From: Azonexus sp. | GTDB taxonomy: Bacteria; Pseudomonadota; Gammaproteobacteria; Burkholderiales; Rhodocyclaceae | Assembly: GCA_031260295.1 (NCBI GenBank) | Contig: JAIRKE010000016.1 | Span: 39,408-103,407 of the forward strand | Direction of reading: 5' to 3' | DNA: 64,000 nt | In this document: piece after piece, positions 52,063 through 53,836 of the stretch | Numbering within the stretch: the first letter of the stretch is position 1 | How the letters are laid out: every line of letters begins with the position of its first letter | Made by a program: the position numbers and the translations under genes | Notes under the pieces: model-generated | Told to the model about the DNA's origin: nothing | Seen by the model: only the letters and a program-made list of their open reading frames with translations | Databases searched by the model: none

Positions 52063-52091
52063 AAAAAAGGGCGCTCCACGGAGCGCCCTTT
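52063..52091. terminator. Bidirectional terminator
   Basis: Stem GGGCGCTC (52069-52076) / GAGCGCCC (52081-52088), loop CACG, flanked by a run of six A on the left and TTT on the right. Serves the glycine-zipper gene on the plus strand and the PEP-CTERM gene on the minus strand. Confidence 0.8.
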
Positions 52092-52114: not shown

Positions 52115-52708
52115 TCAGGCGGCCTTGCGGCGGCGCAGCGAGGCCAAACCGACCAAGCCAAGAGCGGCTAGCGCCAAGGAACCCGGTTCGGGAACAGTGC
52201 CGGGGTCGTTCGGGTTGGTAGCGGAGTCGACGCCATCTAGCCAAACACTCCAGTAGGAACCCATTCCGAAATGGTTGGCTGGCTGATTCCAGTTGCTGAG
52301 GAGAATCGGCGCTTGGTTGTCAAAAATGAAACCGTCGCTCAACGCGGTGGTATTGGCCCAGTTGTTGTAAGTGGCGATGGTGAACGCGTACTCGCCGGCC
52401 GCCAAAGAGGCGAGCGCGAAACCGGAATCATAATGGGTTTGGGTACCGGGATTGATGTTGGAGTCATCATCGTTCTGAGCAATCAGTGTGCCGGTCGTCA
52501 GGTTCCACAGCGCAGTGATCGGGTCGAAATTCTGGCCGTTCAGGAAAGAATCCGTCCATACGCGGACATTGGTTGCATCTTGATCCAGCGTGAAATTGAT
52601 CTGGATGACATCGTTGTGGTAGGTGATGTCGCCGGTGAAGTTGAACAACGCGGCATGAGCCTGGCTGCTCAAGGCAGCAAGAGCGGCGATGACCAAGGTT
52701 TTTTTCAT
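52115..52708 (-). CDS. PEP-CTERM sorting-domain protein (DVUA0089-like)
   Basis: 197 aa from ATG 52708. Signal peptide KKTLVIAALAALSSQAHAA, a beta-rich middle (FTGDITYHNDVIQINFTLDQ; NLTTGTLIAQNDDDSNINPG; GFALASLAAGEYAFTIATYN), then the sorting tail VPEPGSLALAALGLVGLA ending LRRRKAA. PEP-CTERM proteins are processed by exosortase (XrtA/EpsH) and associate with exopolysaccharide. No exosortase gene is in the window. It has its own sigma-54-type promoter. The frame open 24 codons upstream is not used, because the promoter lies there. Confidence 0.93.
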   Translation of the reverse strand: MKKTLVIAALAALSSQAHAALFNFTGDITYHNDVIQINFTLDQDATNVRVWTDSFLNGQNFDPITALWNLTTGTLIAQNDDDSNINPGTQTHYDSGFALASLAAGEYAFTIATYNNWANTTALSDGFIFDNQAPILLSNWNQPANHFGMGSYWSVWLDGVDSATNPNDPGTVPEPGSLALAALGLVGLASLRRRKAA

Positions 52709-52739
52709 GGTGTTCCCTTTCTGGTTAAAGTCATGACAA

Positions 52740-52755
52740 AGCAAATTGTGTGCCT
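52740..52755 (-). promoter_or_regulatory. Sigma-54 (-24/-12) promoter of the PEP-CTERM gene
   Basis: Minus strand reads AGGCAC (52755-52750), five bases ACAAT, then TTGCT (52744-52740). The GG and GC doublets are exactly 12 bases apart, as in the consensus TGGCAC-N5-TTGC. Predicted start near 52730, giving a 5' leader of about 22 bases with GAAAGGGAACACC before the ATG. Confidence 0.8.
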
Positions 52756-52870
52756 GTGCTGGTTTTCCATTTATTTTCATGTGGTTGTGATTTTCTTGTC
52801 TGTCAGTTTGTTGGTTTCTGTAAAGAAATTCGACACATTTTCCGGGTGGTGGGTATTTTGCACCCTGCTG

Positions 52871-53836
52871 CTATATACCGGCGGCGTGTGCTTGTTGATC
52901 AGCCCAATAGCTGGAGCGAACCATCGGTGCGCAGGCGGCGGCGCTGAAGCCCATTTTCATGGCTTCCACCTCGTACATTCTGAACACGTCGGGATGGACG
53001 TAGCGGGTGACGGGCAGGTGGTGTCCCGAGGGAGCGAGGTATTGGCCGATGGTCAGCATTTCGACATCGTGGGCGCGCAGGTCGCGCATGACGTTGAGGA
53101 TTTCCTCATCGCTTTCGCCAAGGCCGACCATCAGGCCGGATTTGGTGGAGATCTGGGGGTAGCGTGCCTTGAACTGCTTGAGGAATTCCAGCGAGTGTTG
53201 GTAATCGGCGCCCGGGCGGGCCTGCTTGTACAGGCGCGGCACGGTTTCGAGATTGTGGTTGAGCACGTCGGGCAGGGCGCCGCCGAGGACTTCTAGGGCG
53301 ACATCAAGGCGGCCACGGAAGTCGGGCACCAGGGTTTCGATGGTGGTGGCGGGCGACAGTTCACGGACCTGGCGGATGACGTCGACGAAATGCTGGGCGC
53401 CGCCGTCGCGCAGATCGTCGCGGTCGACGCTGGTGATGACCACGTAGCGCAGCTTCAGCGCGGCGACCGAGTCGGCCAGTTCGCGCGGTTCGTCGGGGTT
53501 GGGCGGTAGCGGCTGGCCGTGGCCGACGTCGCAGAACGGGCAGCGGCGGGTGCAGATGTCGCCGAGGATCATGAAGGTCGCCGTGCCGCGACCGAAGCAT
53601 TCGCCGATATTGGGGCAGGTCGCTTCTTCGCAGACGGTGTGCAGCTTTTTCTCGCGCAGCATGGCCTTGATTTCGCCGAAGCGGCCGGCGCTGTTGCCGG
53701 CCTTGACGCGGATCCACTCTGGCTTCTTCAGCGCTTCGCCGACCGGGACGATCTTGATGGGAATGCGCGCCGTCTTCAGTTCGCCCTTCTGTTTGACGCC
53801 CTTTTGCTTTGCGCTGCCGATATTGTTGTCAGCCAT
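52871..53836 (-). CDS. lipA: Lipoyl synthase
   Basis: Radical SAM enzyme that inserts two sulfurs into octanoyl groups on lipoyl domains. 321 aa. Auxiliary cluster motif [13 protein letters not shown], radical SAM motif [10 protein letters not shown], and the C-terminal RSSYWADQ Ser ligand are present. Last gene of the dacA-dat-ybeD-lipB-lipA unit; its start overlaps lipB by 8 bases. Confidence 0.98.

Follow-up and report, generated by a model that had tools for sequence, protein, structure and literature searches.

Introduction

The closest described counterpart of the locus studied here is the regulatory site that Haft et al. found in 2006 ahead of 99 of 167 proteobacterial PEP-CTERM genes, which consists of a 17-base motif ending in TTTACA (motif 1), a spacer of 32-92 bases with a mean of 62.8, and then a -24/-12 motif (motif 2) with GG at -24 and GC at -12, with the end of this promoter lying 23-221 bases from the start codon (PMC1569441). 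The same study proposed that PrsR binds motif 1, the box and the regulator being linked by phylogenetic profile, and also described a non-coding upstream region of more than 200 bases as typical of over 65% of the sites, besides a few additional sites preceding genes other than those of PEP-CTERM proteins (PMC1569441). Experimental precedents come from three bacteria. In Aquincola, the PEP-CTERM gene pepA was found to be RpoN1-dependent, with its start mapped to a -24/-12 promoter (PMC9850573), and in Zoogloea resiniphila, prsK and prsR mutants showed no flocculation and released exopolysaccharide (as reported in PMC9012009). In D. vulgaris, DAP-chip showed binding of the regulator DVUA0057 to each of the five PEP-CTERM targets predicted for it, plus several other hits; according to the text of that report, which makes no mention of DVUA0089, there is no validated binding motif for this regulator (PMC3333781).

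Here, we compare with these systems a single PEP-CTERM gene of an Azonexus sp. genome, located in a stretch of 64,000 nucleotides that was analysed as a whole and is called the window throughout. The original prediction had presented this gene as an orphan with a near-perfect sigma-54 promoter, pointing to a dispersed RpoN/PrsR regulon. We put at about 0.87 the probability that the site serves as promoter for one of the units in a dispersed PrsK/PrsR/RpoN regulon, and we also describe the recurrence of the same box before an HprK_rel_A operon, which is where the interest beyond the window lies.

Results

The locus comprises the following features, in the direction of transcription of the PEP-CTERM gene:

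52871..53836, minus strand (same as the PEP-CTERM gene): open reading frame of the upstream neighbour, which we take to be lipA-like from its sequence
52835..52819, minus strand: predicted PrsR-type enhancer box (motif 1 of Haft et al.), 17 bases, TGTCGAATTTCTTTACA
52756..52818, minus strand: spacer of 63 bases separating box and promoter, the latter counted as a 16-mer
52755..52740, minus strand: -24/-12 sigma-54 promoter predicted from the sequence, AGGCACACAATTTGCT (AGGCAC-ACAAT-TTGCT)
52709..52729, minus strand: predicted untranslated leader, with the start site placed by the -12 spacing
52719..52712, minus strand: ribosome site, found in the sequence, AAGGGAAC
52115..52708, minus strand: PEP-CTERM gene, 197 aa, ATG at 52708, DVUA0089 family (NF038127)
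N-terminus of the PEP-CTERM protein, minus strand: signal peptide read by eye, MKKTLVIAALAALSSQAHA
52124..52195, minus strand: PEP-CTERM sorting tail (TIGR02595, residues 172-195), VPEPGSLALAALGLVGLASLRRRK
52066..52091, minus strand, called on both strands: terminator-like hairpin of 11 pairs, 3' of the PEP-CTERM gene

The promoter was present on the gene's own strand as originally described, that is, as AGGCAC-N5-TTGCT with the first G of GG and the G of GC 12 bases apart, and it is followed by the ribosome site and by a short leader; given that the C of GC is position -12, the transcript would start near 52729 and the leader would measure about 21 bases, instead of the 22 first claimed, with 31 bases between the promoter end and the start codon. 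Calling this promoter near-perfect was too generous: the match exists, but it departs from the -24/-12 consensus at two positions, and three other window sites score higher (22.6, 22.1, and 22.1, against 21.8) with a simple matrix that carries our own weights and is built on that consensus. Sites scoring at least 21.8 appeared 0 to 2 times per Markov shuffle in six shuffles of 64 kb, and none in the reversed window, and so judging the promoter by its -24/-12 match alone, which is not above chance, was dropped. One of the three higher-scoring sites is a -24/-12-like match inside the PEP-CTERM gene itself, CGGCACACTGATTGCT at 52493 on the minus strand; it slightly outscores the promoter, and no box lies ahead of it at the thresholds used.

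The significance of the window promoter comes instead from the box that lies upstream of it, since the -24/-12 element alone is insufficient; this activator box at 52835..52819, which the original prediction did not contain, is the decisive element of the site. At thresholds of 28 for the box and 18 for the promoter, the window contains a single pair of the two and the reversed window none, and 40 Markov windows gave 5 such pairs in total, the best of them with a sum of 51.3 vs. 55.8 for the window pair, a score biased towards the window box because the box weights were derived from the boxes of this genome, the window box included. The whole-genome pattern counts given below are independent of these weights. 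Only the stricter thresholds are informative, because the loose setting of 24/17 let through 7 pairs in the reversed window, next to 15 in the window itself. Among the five PEP-CTERM boxes of the genome, the window box alone reads TGTCGAAT, not TGTCGGAA. The whole intergenic region, with 162 bases from the stop of the lipA-like gene to the PEP-CTERM start, has a G+C content of 41% vs. 62% for the window.

In the complete assembly (2.94 Mb in 74 contigs, 97% complete), there are eight PEP-CTERM places over the cut-off, and five of these eight genes have the TGTCG box together with a -24/-12 element, namely the window gene, three genes on contig C50, and one on contig C27, with box-promoter spacers of 63, 51, 64, 64, and 111 bases in all, the longest at the C27 gene and beyond the published range. 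Therefore, the window gene is not the orphan that it was first thought to be: it is unlinked to its predicted regulator, yet it belongs to a dispersed predicted PrsR/sigma-54 regulon, just as had been suspected, in which it is joined by the four further PEP-CTERM genes with a box and a -24/-12 element, located on two other contigs. The module is missing at the other three PEP-CTERM genes, a tandem pair on C25 (L002 and L003) and one gene on C28 (L005), all of them likely under another control; the two C25 genes are neighbouring paralogues.

The original prediction had also proposed a genome scan for this promoter class ahead of PEP-CTERM genes and a search for xrtA, prsK, and prsR, and both turned out in its favour. 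Across the 2.94 Mb, the two-part pattern TTTACA-N40-70-GGCA-N7-TGC matches four times, on each occasion upstream of a PEP-CTERM gene, with none in the reversed control, and the box pattern TGTCGNANNNNTTTACA has six matches, again with none in the reversed control. PrsR (TIGR02915, 753 bits, cut-off 502.6), PrsK (TIGR02916, 902 bits, over cut-off), and PrsT (TIGR02917, 959 bits, over cut-off) are encoded together with the glycosyltransferase EpsB2 on contig C47, RpoN (TIGR02395, 462.8 bits) is encoded on C9, and XrtA (343.1 bits), the only exosortase match in the genome, lies in the exopolysaccharide cluster on C50.

These counts bear on the first alternative, according to which the -24/-12 match would be coincidental and transcription of the gene would be due to a sigma-70 promoter or to read-through out of the lipA-like gene. 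The shuffles do yield comparable -24/-12 matches, and the lipA-like gene lies on the same strand only 162 bases away, but box and promoter in the published spacing occur just once in the window at 28/18, the two-part pattern falls genome-wide only ahead of PEP-CTERM genes (4/4), and a simple scan of the minus strand between the lipA-like and PEP-CTERM genes gave no sigma-70-like site, all of which makes this explanation very improbable in our view.

The gene itself was judged real from the matches of its protein to NF038127, the DVUA0089 family (152.7 bits, cut-off 29), and to PF07589 (30.5 bits, cut-off 20.7), and its sorting tail scores 23.2 bits on TIGR02595 (cut-off 16), or 25.6 bits in the genome search. 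With a signal peptide read by eye, a PEP-CTERM tail, and XrtA in the genome, the protein has the attributes of an exosortase A substrate. It is not PepA, given that NF033554 gives 38.2 bits vs. a curated cut-off of 80. The in-frame ATG at 52780, which would open a 221-aa reading frame, was not accepted as the start codon, because of its position ahead of the promoter and because the signal peptide would then sit 24 residues inside the protein. An AlphaFold model built with two sequences has a mean pLDDT of 46 and gives only a beta-rich sketch. Among the other 59 relatives searched, no ortholog of the protein was found at 1e-10, and for this reason footprinting of the module at the window gene is impossible. 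Named genomes yielded one ortholog, from Rhodoferax, which at 54-55% identity is the nearest named homologue; in that genome, whose completeness is not given, there is no PrsR match at 1e-100, and the box and promoter module is not visible by eye upstream of the homologue, this being a single case.

For the relatives within the genus, we relied on the box pattern because the loose two-part pattern is not discriminating: the latter matches in 31 of 40 genomes, many of the places resembling coding repeats, and its reversed control often matches too. The box pattern gave 60 matches in the 40 genomes vs. 5 in the reversed control, and PrsR is over the cut-off in 20 of the 40. In the genomes at least 90% complete, the box is found in 11 of 14 PrsR-positive genomes (35 sites) vs. 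3 of 12 PrsR-negative ones (3 sites), an association with a one-sided P of 0.0006. None of these three sites (L087, L095, and L101) precedes a PEP-CTERM gene in a pattern test, and their best -24/-12 scores are 15.8, 18.3 (110 bases away), and 14.8, respectively. When all 40 genomes are counted, the contrast diminishes, with 43 sites in the 20 PrsR-positive vs. 17 in the 20 PrsR-negative genomes (P = 0.012), because boxes are also present in some incomplete genomes in which PrsR was not detected; G003 and G012 have four each, and some of the boxes in G003, G007, G023, and G029 (70-85% complete) lie ahead of PEP-CTERM genes. Among all the genomes searched, in the genus and across the order, two PrsR matches over the cut-off were seen in each of G025, G049, G282, G299, G312, and G392.

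We looked at the surroundings of 30 of the 60 sites, one of them (L104) from the own genome. Seventeen lie ahead of a PEP-CTERM gene by the pattern test, one precedes an HprK_rel_A operon (L091), one is ambiguous (L113), and eight look like chance, with a best -24/-12 score of 19.1. Two box-preceded proteins, at L108 and L111, end by eye in VSEPG and VAEPG tails, possibly variant or degenerate sorting tails. At L086 (G026:C181:23509), a box and a -24/-12-like element stand ahead of a long ORF that looks exoprotein-like by eye and is not PEP-CTERM within the stretch covered, and this may be a further target.

That the promoter would be sigma-54 dependent and driven by an NtrC-family activator other than PrsR is, in our estimate, less probable still, because, against the seven further NtrC-like regulators of the genome (310-396 bits on the PrsR model) and the boxes of the four incomplete PrsR-negative genomes just named with 70-85% completeness, the sites track PrsR in the genus genomes at least 90% complete, the three exceptions there have the -24/-12 scores given above and, by the pattern test, no PEP-CTERM gene behind them, PrsR was tied to the box by phylogenetic profile in 2006 (PMC1569441), and the D. 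vulgaris counterpart of PrsR binds PEP-CTERM targets in vitro (PMC3333781).

The sixth box of the genome has no PEP-CTERM gene downstream and leads to a different kind of operon:

C47:15475, minus strand: sixth box, 9 kb from prsR
L078:15491-13468 (contig C47, own genome), minus strand: HprK_rel_A operon with the box, from the sequence
C47, minus strand: operon gene for a 213-aa protein that matches neither Pfam nor NCBIfam and has a twin-arginine (Tat) signal, recognised by eye
C47, minus strand: operon gene for PqqD_rel_X (TIGR04353, 41.6 bits)
C47, minus strand: operon gene for HprK_rel_A (TIGR04352, 377.6 bits)
C47, minus strand: operon gene for an NTP_transf_5 nucleotidyltransferase (PF14907)

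In the own genome, this operon has a weak -24/-12 element, TGGTGTGAATATTGCG, with a spacer of 82 bases. We compared the surroundings of prsR in the own genome and in 9 of the 19 other genus genomes that have PrsR, and found HprK_rel_A in nine of these ten regions. Upstream of the Tat-protein gene, nine of nine genus operons have a box-like 17-mer with a -24/-12-like element 64-83 bases on, a count that relied on a more permissive box cut-off and was not set against shuffles; one of these operons (L115) lacks the GG of its -24 element.

The association extends across the order. In 399 of its genomes, HprK_rel_A was found in 68 and PrsR in 100, with 64 genomes having both, 4 the kinase only, 36 PrsR only, and 295 neither, and the resulting Fisher P of about 1e-42 overstates independence, since the species are related. 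A strong module (score of at least 50) lies upstream in 38 of the 68 HprK_rel_A loci compared, which do not include our own and of which some stretches were shortened by contig ends, vs. 0 of 68 in the reverse-strand control; the other 30 loci remain below this threshold, and Markov shuffles of the first 30 loci reached 50 in 0 of 600 cases. Nearness to prsR alone is no explanation for the module, because the far loci (more than 50 kb away or on another contig) carry it in 22 of 33 cases, compared with 14 of 24 within 15 kb (where G000, scored separately, is counted as without a module) and 1 of 8 at 15-50 kb. One of the four kinase-positive genomes without a detected PrsR (G131) has the module, which does not fit. 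The Tat proteins, in a noisy alignment of 56 candidates, share their signal (consensus SRRRF...LTLASRPVLA) and, at the beginning of the mature part, a stretch rich in Ser and Gly. With this pattern of sites and genomes, a regulatory link between PrsR/sigma-54 and the HprK_rel_A operon appears quite likely.

Discussion

Most likely, then, the window site is a promoter of the dispersed PrsK/PrsR/RpoN regulon, and, read from its sequence, the unit would work as follows from binding to matrix. The membrane kinase PrsK would phosphorylate PrsR, which would in turn bind the TGTCG-n6-TTTACA box; with the AT-rich spacer of 63 bases looped out, PrsR would then drive open-complex formation at the -24/-12 element by RNA polymerase carrying sigma-54. 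The predicted transcript, starting near 52729, would encode the secreted DVUA0089-family protein, whose PEP-CTERM tail would be processed by XrtA, with the protein probably being deposited in the exopolysaccharide matrix. The 2006 prediction thus fits this genome at base level, and the list of predicted PrsR targets comprises here five PEP-CTERM genes and one further operon.

As for the function of this further operon, we suggest keeping in mind the lasso peptides, in which HPr-kinase homologues place a phosphate on a C-terminal serine and a nucleotidyltransferase attaches hexoses to that phosphate (PMC8498205). The operon may, by analogy, serve to phosphorylate the Tat-exported protein and perhaps to glycosylate it as well. 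A broader proposal, to which we give slightly less than an even chance, is that in many bacteria of the order, PrsR and sigma-54 control two arms: on the one hand, the PEP-CTERM proteins, and, on the other, the HprK_rel_A operon with Tat-protein phosphorylation, perhaps sugar decoration, and PqqD-like recognition. If so, the cell would build its matrix with both sorted and phospho-modified surface protein. With the box ahead of it, this uncharacterised cassette for protein modification acquires a likely regulator, a physiological setting in the exopolysaccharide and the floc or biofilm matrix, and a condition of induction that can be tested directly. Targets other than PEP-CTERM genes are not new as such, because both the sites of Haft et al. 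and the DVUA0057 hits include others; a search of the open literature, with subscription papers and family-database notes outside its reach, gave, among the papers listed, no report of a link of PrsR or PEP-CTERM to the HprK_rel_A operon, which may have been noted elsewhere.

The comparison with the known systems is, in summary, as follows. With the phosphoglycosylated lasso peptides paeninodin and pseudomycoidin, the operon shares an HPr-kinase homologue and a nucleotidyltransferase, which act there on a ribosomal product (PMC8498205); in contrast, scans of the four operon genes gave no lasso cyclase, and what would be modified here is a Tat-signal protein of about 200 aa. With the DVUA0057 regulon, the present case has in common a regulator predicted to control PEP-CTERM genes and a protein family named after DVUA0089, whereas D. 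vulgaris is a distant bacterium in which the regulator is plasmid-borne. With the pepA systems of Aquincola tertiaricarbonis RN12 and Zoogloea resiniphila, it shares a PEP-CTERM gene, RpoN, PrsK-PrsR, and, in the case of Aquincola, the -24/-12 promoter, but the window protein is not PepA, and the window case is known from sequence alone. The likeness to the Haft site extends to the 17-base box ending in TTTACA, judged against the text description of motif 1, to the -24/-12 element and the PEP-CTERM gene, to a spacer of 63 bases (published mean 62.8) with a start codon 31 bases on (published 23-221), and to PrsK, PrsR, and PrsT encoded in the genome. Two differences are an intergenic region of 162 bases instead of more than 200, a length that is typical and not required, and a sixth box that serves a non-PEP-CTERM operon recurring across the order. 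On its sequence features, the window site is thus identified as a genuine, unexceptional example of the regulatory site that Haft et al. described for PEP-CTERM genes.
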